From: Porticoccaceae bacterium
Lineage (GTDB): Bacteria > Pseudomonadota > Gammaproteobacteria > Pseudomonadales > Porticoccaceae
Reading direction: 5' to 3'
DNA length: 64,000 nucleotides
NCBI GenBank assembly: GCA_018069525.1
Contig: JAGPUQ010000009.1
Location: forward strand, 62,001-126,000
Part shown: in pieces, positions 7,862-29,473 of the stretch
Numbering within the stretch: the stretch's first letter is position 1
Layout: each line of letters starts with the position of its first letter
Program-made: the position numbers and the translations under genes
The notes under the pieces: model-generated
The model's database searches: none
Told to the model about the DNA's origin: nothing
Seen by the model: the letters and a program-made list of their open reading frames with translations, nothing else

Positions 7862-8868
7862 TTTTCTACGTAATAACGCTCGTAGGGAAAATCGCTATTC
7901 AATTCCAACAAACGTCCGCGGCATGAATCATCAATAAGTTGCTGTTGTGAGAATGACAACATTCCCCCAAAACTGCCTTTCTTGCCAGAGCGCATCATCG
8001 TGCCCCCAGACGTGGCAAAAGGCGTGACTTCGCCGGGATAAAACTTGTGGTCGATACGCTTCATATAGCTGAAAGCACTTTTTTCTCGAACCTTCTCTAT
8101 TTCTTCGGCACTCAAGTCTACCGACATCAGCGCAGCGACTTTGGTAATCGTCCCAACGGGATCGTCCTGCATGTCTTCGTAGGTCAGAAACAAAACATTG
8201 GGACGTTCCCGCCAGAGCCAATAGCTGTTAGTAAAATCTGCCCAGTGGCCAAATACTGCATTTTTCGAACAACTATGGCGAACCCAGGTTGCTATAGAAG
8301 GCATTAATGAACCCAATAACATGCGCCCAAAAAAATGGTGCCCAGAAACCACTACATCTTTTGGGTCCCGTACCACGCAGATATAGTGAGCTTTTTCGCT
8401 ATAGGGTACGTATTCCGCACGCGCATGGGTTTTAATAATACGCAAACCGGTTTTCGATAACTGTGCAGGGCGAGGATCTGCCAATGAAATCGTGGTATCG
8501 GGAGCCGGGCAATCGGCCCAGGGAATCACATCGAGAATGTCGTCGAACTCGCCTTCACCCCGATTAGCAATTTGATGGGAGAGCTGCATCATCCAGTTAG
8601 TCCCACTTTTAAAATACGAACAGACAAACACATCTTTTTCTATCGGCATGTAATCAATAAAGGCTCTATCAATGGCTTTATCAAACATTCCACCAATAGG
8701 CTTAAAAAACAGCCGAAATAGCGGGTATTCAACATGTAATAACCGAGAAATGGCAAAAATCAGGCGTAACAGTAAGGTAAGCGGAATCATCACCTTGCCT
8801 TGTTTGGCGATATTATCGAGGTGAGCCTTTCTACTCAGATGTAAGTCGTCGAAATTAATACTACTCAT
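7858..8868 (-). CDS. PAPS-dependent sulfotransferase
   Basis: 336-residue cytosolic-type sulfotransferase (Sulfotransfer_1 fold), moving sulfate from PAPS to a hydroxyl or amine. The 5'-phosphosulfate loop is SYFKSGTNWM (84-93), the bacterial form of YPKSGTTW. The 3'-phosphate motif is VVRDPKDVVVSGHHF near residue 185. A GAGGA ribosome binding site precedes the start at 8868. It points away from the preceding operon and towards no obvious partner. It is unexpected in a catabolic cluster: it could conjugate a hydroxylated intermediate for detoxification or make a sulfated lipid or sterol. The acceptor is unknown. Confidence 0.88.
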   Translation of the reverse strand: MSSINFDDLHLSRKAHLDNIAKQGKVMIPLTLLLRLIFAISRLLHVEYPLFRLFFKPIGGMFDKAIDRAFIDYMPIEKDVFVCSYFKSGTNWMMQLSHQIANRGEGEFDDILDVIPWADCPAPDTTISLADPRPAQLSKTGLRIIKTHARAEYVPYSEKAHYICVVRDPKDVVVSGHHFFGRMLLGSLMPSIATWVRHSCSKNAVFGHWADFTNSYWLWRERPNVLFLTYEDMQDDPVGTITKVAALMSVDLSAEEIEKVREKSAFSYMKRIDHKFYPGEVTPFATSGGTMMRSGKKGSFGGMLSFSQQQLIDDSCRGRLLELNSDFPYERYYVEN

Positions 8869-25354: not shown

Positions 25355-25792
25355 CTAGCTCAGTGTGGAGTCACTGTCGGCAGGAGTTCTTTGTACCGCT
25401 TTATTTTGCATATACCTTGGTCGATTTTTATCCAACACAAACCAGCTTGAGACTGACTCACAATATATTTGGTAGCTCGGCTCAGGTATTTTCCCTTCGG
25501 TAATGGTGCCAACTCTCAGCCTGATAGTCTCAGGCATATCAGTACGCTGACTAAACAAGGGGCTGCCACAATTAGCACAAAATACGCGCCTTTTATTTTC
25601 GCTGGAGCTGTATGACTTAAAATTCTCTTCACCCGATAACCACTTCATTTTAGCCAGATCTATCGGTGCATTTGTTGCAAAAGGAGTTCCTTGAGCTTTC
25701 TTGCACTGCCCGCAGTGACAAACCGCTAATTCCGATATTTCAGCGCCATATTCATATTTCACTTCTCCGCAGAGACAACTTCCTTTAATCAT
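25355..25792 (-). CDS. GFA/CENP-V-type zinc protein
   Basis: 145-residue glutathione-dependent-formaldehyde-activating-like protein with a zinc site: CLCGEVKY near the N-terminus, CHCGQCKKAQG near 25-35, and FCANCGSPLF near 75. The start at 25792 follows GGAGGGAAG, so a start four codons earlier is less likely. Members bind zinc; actual glutathione chemistry is rarely shown. Genes of this family often turn up as integron cassettes, and this copy adjoins a patch containing a real attC site. Its C-terminal tail VQRTPADSDSTLS has no zinc residues and looks like read-through into flanking DNA. Confidence 0.88.
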   Translation of the reverse strand: MIKGSCLCGEVKYEYGAEISELAVCHCGQCKKAQGTPFATNAPIDLAKMKWLSGEENFKSYSSSENKRRVFCANCGSPLFSQRTDMPETIRLRVGTITEGKIPEPSYQIYCESVSSWFVLDKNRPRYMQNKAVQRTPADSDSTLS

Positions 25793-25864
25793 ACTTCCCT
25801 CCATCCGCGAATTAGCGCGTAACGCCCTGCCTACGATCTCAGAAAGACAATTGGATAAGGGCTG

Positions 25865-25908: not shown

Positions 25909-26030
25909 GGCCCTAACGCCTCGCCTCAGTTGCGCAGTGCAGCCACGTCGACCGGGAGACACTTGTCATATCTTAAATACAGTAATTTACTGCACATAAG
26001 GCTATATGGATACAAAGTTTATGGGGAATT

Positions 26031-26855
26031 TCACTTCGAATGTGGCTTAATAATTTCTGAGAAAGCTTTAACTTTTAAATACCTATAAGACAGACCGCCA
26101 TATCCAAGTGGTATATATTCATTACTTGGATTCTTATCGAAAAAATATTCTAGGACTCTCATGCTAGAAAAAACGCACGGCTCCATGTCTTTAGTAATTA
26201 ATTCTATAAAATTCTCCTCGGTGGCCTTACTTTTACTATGTACAATTTTATTCCTAATATTCTCTAACTCTTTGAAGTCTGACCAAAATTCCTTTTTTTG
26301 AGGTTTTTCACATTCATATACTCCAGGAAGAATCTTCGTGAGCTTGTCAGATGTTTTAATCCATCTCTCGATTTCTGGCTTGCTATATATTTCAGTCACC
26401 CCTCTCTGATTAGTGATTTTATACTCATAATCATCAGGAATCGACGCGTTACAAAAAGACTCTACAGCTTTATAGCTAAAAATAATCGCCATATATATTT
26501 GTTCTACATAGTCAAAATAAATTTCCATCCTATCTTTAGTGATGGAGCTTTTATCTTTTTTAATCGAATCAGTGATATCTTTTTTTAAGCGTACGGAGGT
26601 ACTCCATGATCTTTCTAAAATACTCAGTGATATTGATATTTCATTTGGAAGAGCCAGCGTGACATCATGGTCAGATATGCTCGCGTCAAATGTTTTAAAA
26701 TACGTGACTATTTTTTCAGCATCTTCAGAATAGATTGAATTTGGGCGATTACATCGCCGATCAATGTCAAAATTTTTAATATTGGGTTCTGAGCCATCTG
26801 CAACGTCGATAACAAGACCTATATGGCTTGACCCATCATATTCGTCCATAATCAA
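26031..26855 (-). CDS. Uncharacterised protein with HEPN-like RNxxxH motif
   Basis: 274 residues, AT-rich and unlike its GC-rich neighbours in codon use, which suggests transfer. I do not recognise a named family. The second half is helical with SYKAVESFCNAS (127-138) and the motif R201-N202-KIV-H206, the Rx4H pattern of HEPN domains, which occur in RNases of toxin-antitoxin and abortive-infection systems. The N-terminal 100 residues show no motif I know. It follows a patch of inverted and direct repeats. A role in phage or stress response is inference from motif and setting. No partner antitoxin is evident. Confidence 0.7.
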   Translation of the reverse strand: MIMDEYDGSSHIGLVIDVADGSEPNIKNFDIDRRCNRPNSIYSEDAEKIVTYFKTFDASISDHDVTLALPNEISISLSILERSWSTSVRLKKDITDSIKKDKSSITKDRMEIYFDYVEQIYMAIIFSYKAVESFCNASIPDDYEYKITNQRGVTEIYSKPEIERWIKTSDKLTKILPGVYECEKPQKKEFWSDFKELENIRNKIVHSKSKATEENFIELITKDMEPCVFSSMRVLEYFFDKNPSNEYIPLGYGGLSYRYLKVKAFSEIIKPHSK

Positions 26856-26885
26856 TCCTCATCATGCTATAACGCTCAACGTAAA

Positions 26886-26946
26886 ACACCCAATCAGGGT
26901 CAGGTCTTTGATTTAAACACCCAATCAGGGTCAGGTCTTTGATTTA
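26886..26946. repeat. Two 30-bp direct copies of the mobile-element end
   Basis: Two identical 30-base copies (26886-26915 and 26917-26946) beginning ACACCCAATCAGGGTCAGG, separated by a single base. The second runs on into the longer repeat at 26922. Each contains most of the terminal repeat of the element at 27007-27209. They look like successive partial insertions or slippage products. Confidence 0.85.
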
Positions 26947-27076
26947 TGATCACTAACGATCCCACTCAACGTCGAATGTCTTCGCGACGGCCTCCACAGC
27001 CAATCAGGGTCAGGTCTTTGATTTATGATCACTAACGATCCCACTCAACGTCGAATGTCTTCGCGACGGCCTCCAC
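26922..27076. repeat. Exact 76-bp tandem duplication
   Basis: The 76-base stretch 26922-26997 is repeated without change at 27001-27076 (period 79, spacer AGC). It comprises the left terminal repeat of the mobile element plus 40 bases of interior. The identity shows that the duplication is recent. Confidence 0.9.
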
Positions 27077-27209
27077 GAGAAGCTACGTGATACGTCCCCA
27101 CCAGAGTCTAATCGTAAGTGTCTGACTATAATAGCTATAGCGCTCTCACTAACAAGTACCTGTCTAGCTAGGCGCGCCTTGGTGTAATCATAAATCAAAG
27201 ACCTGACCC
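27007..27209. mobile_element. 203-bp MITE-like element with 23-bp perfect terminal inverted repeats
   Basis: The ends 27007-27029 and 27187-27209 are perfect 23-base inverted repeats starting GGGTCAGGTCTTTGATT. No intact transposase is present. Read on the minus strand, the right end gives ATG with MITPRRA then a stop, and the left end gives VEAVAKTFDVEWDR then a stop. These look like the two termini of a deleted transposase gene. Ends of this GGGTCAGGTCTT type are, from memory, associated with Y1/REP-associated transposases in gammaproteobacteria; this needs a database match. Confidence 0.7.
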
Positions 27210-27334
27210 CGAAACTCAATCGCATTTCTCGGACTCCCTATCCGGGAAATGAGATATACCCTTCCCGGTTGCGCAGCCTTGAAGTAAAAGGAGCGAGGTT
27301 GCGAAAATTATGATGAGATTTCCGGGCATTTGGG
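27210..27334. other. Spacer between the mobile element and the attC site
   Basis: 125 bases with no gene. It contains two GGTTGCG boxes (at about 27269 and 27297) and CCGGGAAATGAGAT near 27252, but nothing I can assign. Together with 26856-27209 it makes a 549-base stretch without a coding region, ending at the attC site. Confidence 0.3.
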
Positions 27335-27397
27335 GCCTAACGATTTGGGTAAGGCGCGCGACGCTTTTTCGCGTCGCACTTGACCCCCTTGTTAGGG
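27335..27397 (-). other. Integron attC recombination site
   Basis: 63 bases with the full attC layout. Read on the minus strand: R'' CCCTAAC (27397-27391), L'' GGGTCAAG, a hairpin GCGACGC-TTTTTC-GCGTCGC (27358-27377), L' CTTACCC (27353-27347) and R' GTTAGGC (27341-27335). The L arms pair except for one unpaired base, G27382, on the strand that IntI recombines; this extrahelical G is the hallmark that fixes the orientation. R'' starts 7 bases after the stop of the minus-strand gene at 27405, the normal place for the attC of a cassette. R'' deviates from consensus only at its first base. Confidence 0.88.
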
Positions 27398-27404
27398 TTA
27401 TTTG

Positions 27405-28208
27405 CTATGCAATCTCTAATAATTCGCATAATACAGTTCTCACTTGGTCTCGTACTCTTGTAACTTCAGATTTATTAGTTGGTGTGTGTGTAGAAATACT
27501 TGCTCGTGTATATACTGAGCGGACAAATGCTCCAACACTTTCTTCGACAACAGCGATAGAATCTTGGACAGGTTTTATAGCGTTTCGTGTTTGTTTTCTC
27601 TTTTTAAGAATAAATTGAGCTTTTTGTTTCATGGTTGGCTTGCTTATGTTCTTTTCCAGTTTAAAACCATCAGCAGCCATAACATCAACGTCAGGCGCCA
27701 ATGTGTCAAGGCATTCTCTTAGAGCCTCTCGATAATCAGTTGCGGGACCGCGCCATGATAAGCGCTCATTTGACTGCAAATCTATTGTGGCTTGCTCATA
27801 GGATAAAGCTGCTGATGGACATACCATTTTTAATGTTTGAATAATTGAGCTGTCACTGTCGTTTTTAATATTTGTTTTACCTATATCACTATTTTCAAGT
27901 AAGGCTAATTTCTCAATATTAATTAGGGACTTTTTAATTTTGTTTGCAAGTGACTTATAAATAGATAGGCTAGTTCGCTTATGTGTTGCTTCCAGTAGAG
28001 ACTGCATAAGATTGTCTAACTCTAATACAACTTGATTATCTATTTGGTTGTTTGAAATGCTAGGCCTAACACTCCTAAAATAATCATCCACAACAGCCTG
28101 CGCGCTTTCTTTAGGACGCTTTTGACCTACTTGCGTAGTTTTAATTTTTTTTAACAAGCCATTTAAAGATAAAACTTCCGCTTGTAGCTCTCTAACGCCT
28201 TCTAGCAT
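27405..28208 (-). CDS. Cassette gene: putative nuclease-domain protein (pPIWI-associated-nuclease-like)
   Basis: 267 residues. The N-terminal 110 are helical and probably coiled. A conserved block follows: SWRGPATDYREALRECLDTL (151-170), then APDVDVM, GFKLEK and PTMKQKAQFIL near 193-201, and a C-terminal FVRSVYTRASISTHTP (228-243) with a last helix LCELLEIA. From memory these match the predicted nuclease domain found beside prokaryotic PIWI-related proteins; without a search this is tentative. It lies 18 bases after the winged-helix gene and is the last gene of the cassette, with the attC R'' 7 bases after its stop. AT-rich relative to the flanking genome. Confidence 0.7.
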   Translation of the reverse strand: MLEGVRELQAEVLSLNGLLKKIKTTQVGQKRPKESAQAVVDDYFRSVRPSISNNQIDNQVVLELDNLMQSLLEATHKRTSLSIYKSLANKIKKSLINIEKLALLENSDIGKTNIKNDSDSSIIQTLKMVCPSAALSYEQATIDLQSNERLSWRGPATDYREALRECLDTLAPDVDVMAADGFKLEKNISKPTMKQKAQFILKKRKQTRNAIKPVQDSIAVVEESVGAFVRSVYTRASISTHTPTNKSEVTRVRDQVRTVLCELLEIA

Positions 28209-28226
28209 TACTCTATACCTTACTAT

Positions 28227-28763
28227 TTATTTTTTAGTACGCGGCAATGAATGAGCGACTAGATTATGTCCTACAGGGTTTAATTTATAACGACCACGCG
28301 ATGAAGCAGAGTCGAGGTAGCCAGCAGCTTTTGCATCAATTAGGGTTTGAGATACGGCTTTAGGTAGTGGAAAGCCTGCTTGTTTAAAATATTTTTCTAA
28401 GTCTTTTTTATTAATATCTGGTGATGCCTCACCTTCTGGTGCGTAATTTTCTAAATAATAGGCAACTAAGCATGTCATCTCTATTCCGTTAGAGGGTACT
28501 TTCTCTTCCTTAAGCGATCTTATATCCTTAACAGTTGAAGTTTGTTGTGGCGTAGAAGTATGTTGCACTTCGGGTGCTGACGAACCTGTGTTCTGCGTTG
28601 GATGGAGTGTGCTTGCAATAGCCTCTGATGCGCAAATATTAATATTCAAATGTCCACAGGCTGCTTTAACTGCAATTGACCTAGTTATTTCATCAAGATC
28701 AGACAAAGCAGAAATGATTTCATCTATTGCTGTTCCAATGCTTTTCTTTTCTGACTTTGACAT
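28227..28763 (-). CDS. Cassette gene: winged-helix protein of unknown function
   Basis: 178 residues. The N-terminal helix (1-60) is followed by a Ser/Thr/Gln-rich linker (about 68-90) and a C-terminal winged-helix-like domain (about 95-175): DINKKDLEKYFKQAG, then LPKAVSQTLIDAKAAGYL, then SSRGRYKLNPVGHNLV with the basic wing. The start has AGGAG 6 bases upstream. It begins 30 bases after the cassette boundary GTTAGGG (28799-28793, minus strand) and is co-transcribed with the putative nuclease. It could be a DNA-binding sensor or repressor for that partner. I do not recognise a named family. Confidence 0.75.
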   Translation of the reverse strand: MSKSEKKSIGTAIDEIISALSDLDEITRSIAVKAACGHLNINICASEAIASTLHPTQNTGSSAPEVQHTSTPQQTSTVKDIRSLKEEKVPSNGIEMTCLVAYYLENYAPEGEASPDINKKDLEKYFKQAGFPLPKAVSQTLIDAKAAGYLDSASSRGRYKLNPVGHNLVAHSLPRTKK

Positions 28764-28792
28764 TTAATTCTCCTATTAATAATTTGTTGTAA

Positions 28793-28875
28793 CCCTAACT
28801 ATTAGTTAACTGCACCTGCAGTATATGTACCTGATTAGGGATGCTTTACTGCTTGTGTAGTATATGTGCCCAATT
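28793..28875 (-). other. Cassette boundary with paired 28-bp direct repeats (attI-like)
   Basis: GTTAGGG on the minus strand (28799-28793) marks the 5' end of the cassette. Immediately outside it are two 28-base imperfect direct repeats, 28809-28836 and 28848-28875 (21 of 28 identical), sharing AGTATATGT. This layout, a simple site next to two direct repeats, resembles an attI site. It could equally be a pair of operators for the cassette promoter. No partner arm of an attC is present at this junction, and no integrase gene is in the window. Confidence 0.5.
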
Positions 28876-29068
28876 TTTGGGGTTTTTACTACTCGCACGG
28901 TAGCTCACACCTTAACCCCAAACTATTTATTTTTCTAATGTACTGATTTAATAAACGAAATTTTCTATTTTTATTTTCGAGCAAGCTTAACTGCGCTAGC
29001 CCGATAAGGTATTTTTTCCAGCTTGGCCGGACTATTTTTTGTTATTAAACATCGGTTCTATAAAAAAT
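28876..29068. other. Spacer between cassette boundary and RNase P RNA
   Basis: With 28764-28875 this forms a 305-base gap without a coding region. It contains TTTGGGG (28877-28883) and CCCCAAA (28917-28923), a loose inverted repeat, and AT-rich sequence downstream of the RNase P RNA. No clear terminator for that RNA is seen. Confidence 0.3.
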
Positions 29069-29473
29069 GGAAGCTGGCCGATAAGCCGGGTTCTGTCGTG
29101 GACAGTCATTCATCTGGGATGCACGTCGCCGTACACCTCAAGCAGCCTACCCGGATCCAGTGCGGGCCGCACCAGTGGATCCCTATTTGGCCTTGCTCCG
29201 AGCGGGGTTTACCCTGCCACGCCTGTTGCCAGCCGCGCGGTGCGCTCTTACCGCACCATTTCACCCTTACCCAGCCTTAAAGCGAACTTCAAAGTTGGGC
29301 GGTATATTTTCTGTGGCACTTTCCATAGGCTTTCGCCCCCCAGGCGTTACCTGGCGCTCTGCCCTGTGGAGCCCGGACTTTCCTCTATCTCACCACCGAT
29401 AACATCATAAATAGAGCCATAAGCCCTATTATGAAGTCTCAGCAAGCGAAACAGCGACTGCCTGGCCAGCTTC
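29069..29473 (-). ncRNA. rnpB: RNase P RNA, bacterial class A
   Basis: About 405 bases on the minus strand. The 5' end GAAGCTGGCCAGGCAGTCGC (29473 leftwards) and the 3' end with GACAGAACCCGGCTTATCGG pair as helix P1. Universal core segments are present: GAGGAAAGTCCGGGCTCCAC near 29390, GGCGAAAGCC, GGTAAGGGTGAAATGGTGCG, and near the 3' end the GATGAATGACTGTCCACGAC stretch. It is the catalytic RNA that matures tRNA 5' ends. Apparent reading frames on the plus strand across it are spurious. End positions are set by the P1 pairing and could shift by a few bases. Confidence 0.96.

Follow-up and report, generated by a model that had tools for sequence, protein, structure and literature searches.

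How does a small pair of genes, one encoding a predicted winged-helix protein and the other a predicted nuclease, come to lie in the genome of a marine Porticoccaceae bacterium, and what might the two proteins do together? The window, i.e., the whole 64,000-nt stretch of DNA that was analysed, carries this pair on its minus strand. The features of the locus, together with the genes found near copies of the pair elsewhere, are collected in Table 1.

Table 1 Features of the locus in the window, and defence-type genes near copies of the pair in other genomes
Feature	Position	Strand	Remarks
Integron gene cassette	27341..28798	-	1458 nt, from TTAGGG (28798) to the G of R' (27341); limits from complementary ends and attC fold
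178-aa winged-helix protein (predicted)	28227..28763	-	N-terminal helical hairpin (residues 9-38), disordered linker, C-terminal wHTH (about 80-178)
267-aa all-helical predicted nuclease	27405..28208	-	PF18165 domain at residues 137-232; model pLDDT 87.5
attC site	27335..27397	-	63 nt; R'' CCCTAAC (27391-27397), R' GTTAGGC (27335-27341)
5' recombination boundary G^TTAGGG	28793..28799	-	cut 28799^28798; from sequence
attI-like candidate	28806..28875	.	two 31-nt direct repeats, 74% identical, 39 nt apart, just upstream of the cassette
Neighbours, G692			HsdR, HsdS, RhuM, RhuM-Fic, GmrSD (Type IV)
Neighbours, L013			HsdR, HsdS
Neighbours, L018			HsdM, HsdS, HsdR
Neighbour, L010			HsdM-type fragment
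Neighbour, L012			putAbiC
Neighbours, L019			AbiEi, AbiEii
Neighbours, L020			BstXI-like R-M, PIN
Neighbour, L021			TdeIII-like R-M
Neighbour, L007			HigB
Neighbour, L023			Fic

The stretch that holds the two genes is an integron cassette. Specifically, the plus strand of the attC site, which is the recombining strand of this minus-oriented cassette, forms a single long hairpin, one arm of which has unpaired bases (-16.7 kcal/mol, z -3.05); the minus strand favours another fold. The R'' and R' cores are inverted, as they are in the attC of an integron cassette. A strict scan finds a single attC-like site in the window and 11 in 40 shuffled windows, i.e., 0.28 per window, so that the hairpin by itself is weak evidence. 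What makes the site convincing is its position 7 nt past the stop codon of the operon's last gene, together with the matching 5' end and a related attC in a bacterium of the same order, G092 (85% identical over 47 nt, E 1.5e-7), which lies within a row of attC-like sites, a cassette array, and adjoins unrelated genes. The cassette start, TTAGGG, is complementary to its own R'' sequence CCCTAA at six of six positions, the relation of a circularised cassette, and this fixes the cassette limits. The cassette has a GC content of 38.1% where the window has 50.1%, which places it in the lowest 0.5% among equal-sized windows. A preliminary description of this DNA had drawn a complete cassette with a GTTAGGG boundary, a well-formed attC and AT-rich genes; the complementarity to R'', the attC structure with its relative in G092, and the base composition uphold each of these.

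The cassette sits away from an integrase. The window's contig gives no IntI match, and of the adjoining intI and attI of a complete integron only attI-like repeats lie by the cassette; judging from their sequence, these direct repeats may represent an attI. A full IntI is encoded on another contig (C9:112075-113016; 431.6 bits, cut-off 265) and a partial one on contig C4, both with attC-like sites nearby: in the remnant on C9 (L052:9055-11755) the full intI is accompanied by an attC-like site of 87 nt close to the end of the contig, and in that on C4 (L053:9648-13192) a truncated intI is accompanied by one of 72 nt. On the upstream side, the RNase P RNA gene (29066-29473, minus strand) precedes the cassette, which begins about 270 nt beyond it. 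In several relatives, the position downstream of the RNase P RNA is held by an mraZ-like gene, identified by eye from sequence; mraZ was not found in the window or its nearby flanks, and the junction between the RNase P RNA and the cassette (28800-29473) has therefore been rearranged.

On the other side of the cassette, core-like GTT sites occur near 25912 and 26870, and no second foldable attC is present in the region tested, for which reason the neighbouring genes were rejected as further cassettes of one array. Three features of this region can be recorded in their own right. A gene for a 274-aa protein on the cassette's strand (26031-26855, minus; TTG start, 34% GC) matches phrog_17113 (1.5e-34) and, weakly, HEPN-type families, and is possibly another, degenerate cassette, though no attC was found. 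Tandem 79-nt and 31-nt repeats (AATCAGGGTCAGGTCTTTGATTTA...) with an inverted copy around a short ORF occupy 26884-27212, between two AT-rich genes, and a AATCAGGGTCAGGTCTTT stretch resembling them closes the cassette array in L054, near 8000-8020. Finally, a gene for a GFA-like protein (25355-25804, minus) shares the cassette's strand, with the core-like GTT near 25912 and no foldable attC.

In many phyla the two genes occur, closely spaced, as a conserved pair whose members diverge in parallel. A homologous pair was identified in G692 (identities 45% and 54%), and a scan of 84,980 species genomes with the alignment of this pair yielded 19 further loci in about nine phyla, one of them on the same G692 contig. 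At 18 of these 19 loci the nuclease-like gene is immediately preceded by the wHTH gene, mostly with intergenic gaps of -4 to +17 nt; the exception, L022 from Bradyrhizobium, has a distant nuclease homologue alone. Pairwise distances in the two families correlate at 0.84 (16 loci), the best of 2000 permutations reaching 0.62, and matches to the wHTH family are confined to the pair's own locus in all 15 carrier genomes tested. At two loci, one partner is damaged beside an intact other, in both cases possibly by sequencing error: the wHTH gene is split at L018:4942-5399, and the nuclease-like gene is truncated at L025:5929-6495.

The hosts comprise Syntrophaceae and other deltaproteobacteria, Bacteroidetes, Gamma- and Alphaproteobacteria, Nitrospira, Thermoanaerobaculia, Actinomycetes, Dojkabacteria and Patescibacteria, Phycisphaerae, and Dormiibacterota, an assignment that may be wrong in places because most loci lie on MAG contigs. 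The closest relatives of the cassette pair come not from gammaproteobacteria but from one MAG each of Syntrophaceae and Bacteroidetes. The distribution is sparse: PF18165 turns up in a single genome among 398 from Pseudomonadota and the nuclease profile in one among 198 from the phylum of L010, and 144 relatives yielded none. Such a very low, patchy prevalence in scattered hosts is as expected for an accessory unit that moves horizontally. The family is missing from the plasmid and phage collections that were searched, and the viral contigs contain no real relatives, one short wHTH-like segment apart. A long ORF on a viral contig (L069:4493-6377) has 38 residues similar to the winged-helix family (E 3e-9). 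None of the other loci of the pair has a convincing attC nearby, so the cassette nature is shown for the window's copy only.

On the minus strand, the gene for the 178-aa protein comes first, followed by an 18-nt spacer and the gene for the 267-aa protein. The first protein is predicted to have a winged-helix fold: its AlphaFold2 model reaches a pLDDT of 80.5 overall and >90 for most of residues 81-170, and Foldseek aligns it with wHTH proteins (TubR, MarR) at probabilities up to 1.00, yet with E >= 0.017. Pfam, NCBIfam and PADLOC contain no model that matches it. The 267-aa protein, in turn, matches PF18165 (pP_pnuc_1, "predicted pPIWI-associating nuclease") with 40.4 bits against a Pfam gathering cut-off of 26.3, and PADLOC's Aga_Nuclease weakly and in part, a profile that 18 of 20 family members match. 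Its AlphaFold2 model is all-helical but for one small low-confidence hairpin and contains a long coiled helix; PD-(D/E)XK, PIN and HNH folds are incompatible with this model, and Foldseek returns nothing with E <= 0.001 from the PDB or from viral models.

The family alignment of the 267-aa protein shows R153, R160, E161 and R164 to be invariant and R230, Y233, R235, T240 and H241 to be near-invariant. The latter set includes a near-invariant HEPN-like R-x5-H motif (R235-x5-H241) in a region of low pLDDT, where the model places R235 in the small hairpin. We do not claim HEPN membership, as hhalign comparison of the C-terminal domain profile with two HEPN families, DUF4145 and RiboL-PSP, gives probabilities <1, like those of reversed and shuffled controls. 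With no known fold matched and a HEPN comparison no better than controls, the nuclease label, which comes from Pfam, stays a prediction. Searching the literature for PF18165 or pP_pnuc gave no result.

The genes around the pair suggest a function. Restriction-modification (R-M), Abi or toxin genes lie within ~5 kb at 10 of 18 paired loci, as judged from neighbours picked by the analyst, mostly larger nearby ORFs; at the other 8, some of which have truncated flanks, no defence neighbour is obvious. PADLOC at 1e-10 matched 0 of 42 control genes from arbitrary loci, which were taken from relatives of the window's genome and thus not host-matched to the pair loci. A single ORF that combines RhuM and Fic/Doc domains adjoins a Type I R-M operon at L006:11413-12534. 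Integron cassettes, moreover, are known to carry anti-phage systems (PMC12409362). From these data, it appears somewhat probable that the pair is a compact, horizontally mobile two-gene conflict module, most likely for anti-phage defence of the abortive type. The preliminary description had anticipated much of this: it read the first gene as winged-helix, which AlphaFold2 and Foldseek now place in a C-terminal wHTH, and the gene 18 bases downstream as resembling pPIWI-associated nucleases, recognised no named system with this pair, and proposed a two-component defence or toxin-antidote unit, an idea that gains support, its defence side drawing solely on gene neighbourhood. Two objections that it had raised against itself fall away, as the 267-aa protein matches PF18165 instead of a housekeeping family, and the homologues are adjacent and diverge together rather than never adjoining.

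How such a module would work can be sketched, with more doubt attached to the exact mechanism than to the general role. The wHTH protein would oligomerise via its N-terminal helical hairpin, bind DNA and keep its partner in check. Subsequently, invading DNA or a phage-induced disturbance would free the helical effector, which could cut nucleic acid, probably RNA, in a metal-free manner through the conserved Arg and His residues, and growth would stop. No match to a sigma-70-like promoter was found upstream of the pair, and the leader of 35 nt is too short for a full promoter, so that expression probably needs transcription from upstream.

The main rival of the defence reading is a plain toxin-antitoxin unit, an addiction module in which the wHTH protein would be an autorepressing antitoxin and the helical protein its toxin, kept because it stabilises the cassette or adjoining DNA and not for any action against phage. 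Toxin-antitoxin modules are common in integrons, and a small pair of coupled genes that opens with the DNA-binding one, found elsewhere near HigB, PIN and Fic genes, would suit this description. Cassette toxin-antitoxin modules usually bring their own promoter, however, whereas the short leader without a promoter match suggests outside transcription, which is more in keeping with ordinary cassettes than with toxin-antitoxin cassettes that are self-sufficient. Moreover, conservation in the wHTH protein spans a long domain and not a short antitoxin tail, and the nuclease-like gene at L018 is intact beside the split wHTH gene, sequencing error permitting. We regard this alternative as a minority possibility that deserves to be taken seriously.

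A further reading is that the pair serves as an accessory of R-M systems, a regulator or guard that acts on restriction failure, in the way that PrrC, a HEPN anticodon nuclease, accompanies Type I R-M. HEPN effectors within R-M operons that include RhuM or Fic genes are an established pattern (PMC3710099), and the pair lies directly after hsdS in G692 and L013, ahead of hsdM-hsdS-hsdR in L018, and 213 bp before the HsdM-type fragment in L010. Since most copies, including the cassette, lack Type I R-M genes in their sequenced flanks, such a role could not be general, and the profile comparison lends no support to HEPN membership; we therefore consider this account unlikely. Equally unlikely, in our estimate, is that the pair is not cytotoxic, the second protein being no nuclease, and forms a DNA-binding complex of a transcriptional, nucleoid or partition-like kind: the all-helical fold, in which a long coiled helix but no nuclease core can be recognised, and the plasmid partition protein TubR as the best structural match of the wHTH, speak in its favour, but the strongly conserved Arg/Glu/His set, the PF18165 and Aga_Nuclease profile matches, and the defence-type neighbourhood speak against it. 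A part in a prokaryotic Argonaute (pPIWI) system, suggested by the Pfam name and the partial Aga_Nuclease match, is rejected as extremely improbable because a Piwi domain occurs in 0 of 15 carrier genomes, the window's genome included.

If the defence reading holds, the pair may constitute an Argonaute-independent anti-phage system of about nine phyla, with a helical nuclease of undescribed fold and active site and a winged-helix sensor, small enough for a single cassette; this fuller proposal is put forward tentatively. PADLOC v2 (2023), NCBIfam and the open-access papers searched contain no named system for the pair, and an earlier experimental description is possible. PF18165, known only by a predicted Argonaute tie, has an obligate-looking winged-helix partner and travels without Argonaute, in the present genome within an integron cassette and in others often in defence islands. 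An active module would add a compact two-gene system of defence or growth arrest and would give PF18165 proteins a testable biochemistry, and its size of ~1.4 kb allows it to be cloned as one piece.

Among known families, the nearest is PF18165 itself with PADLOC's Aga_Nuclease: the core residues 137-232 score above the curated cut-off, and nearly all members (18 of 20) match the latter profile, but the pair's carriers are without Argonaute, and the protein has an extra N-terminal helical region and a fixed wHTH pairing. An Argonaute partner that has been characterised, bAgaN, is a PD-(D/E)XK DNase (PMC10620215), a fold absent from the 267-aa model; the comparison does not equate bAgaN with PADLOC's Aga_Nuclease. 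As far as the anti-phage integron cassettes of Darracq et al. 2025 and Kieffer et al. 2025 are described in the review PMC12409362, the present cassette resembles them in its small size (two genes here) and standard attC, and differs in being apparently alone and away from an integrase, its own defence activity being putative.

An integron-cassette HEPN family has been reported as well, and HEPN RNases of the PrrC/RloC type are tied to R-M operons (PMC3710099). With these, the 267-aa protein shares a predicted all-helical architecture, a HEPN-like R-x5-H motif that may lie where the last two helices join, R-M, RhuM and Fic neighbours, and one integron instance. It differs from them in having neither DUF4145 or RiboL-PSP profile similarity nor an ABC-ATPase partner, and in the residue after the Arg, which is small (A/S/T/G) instead of the usual N/D/H, at a motif where model confidence is low. 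Lastly, the AbiE system, in which a wHTH regulator (AbiEi) is coupled to a toxin (AbiEii), offers the same two-gene plan with the DNA-binding partner first; the protein families differ, and L019 carries the pair beside a separate AbiE system.
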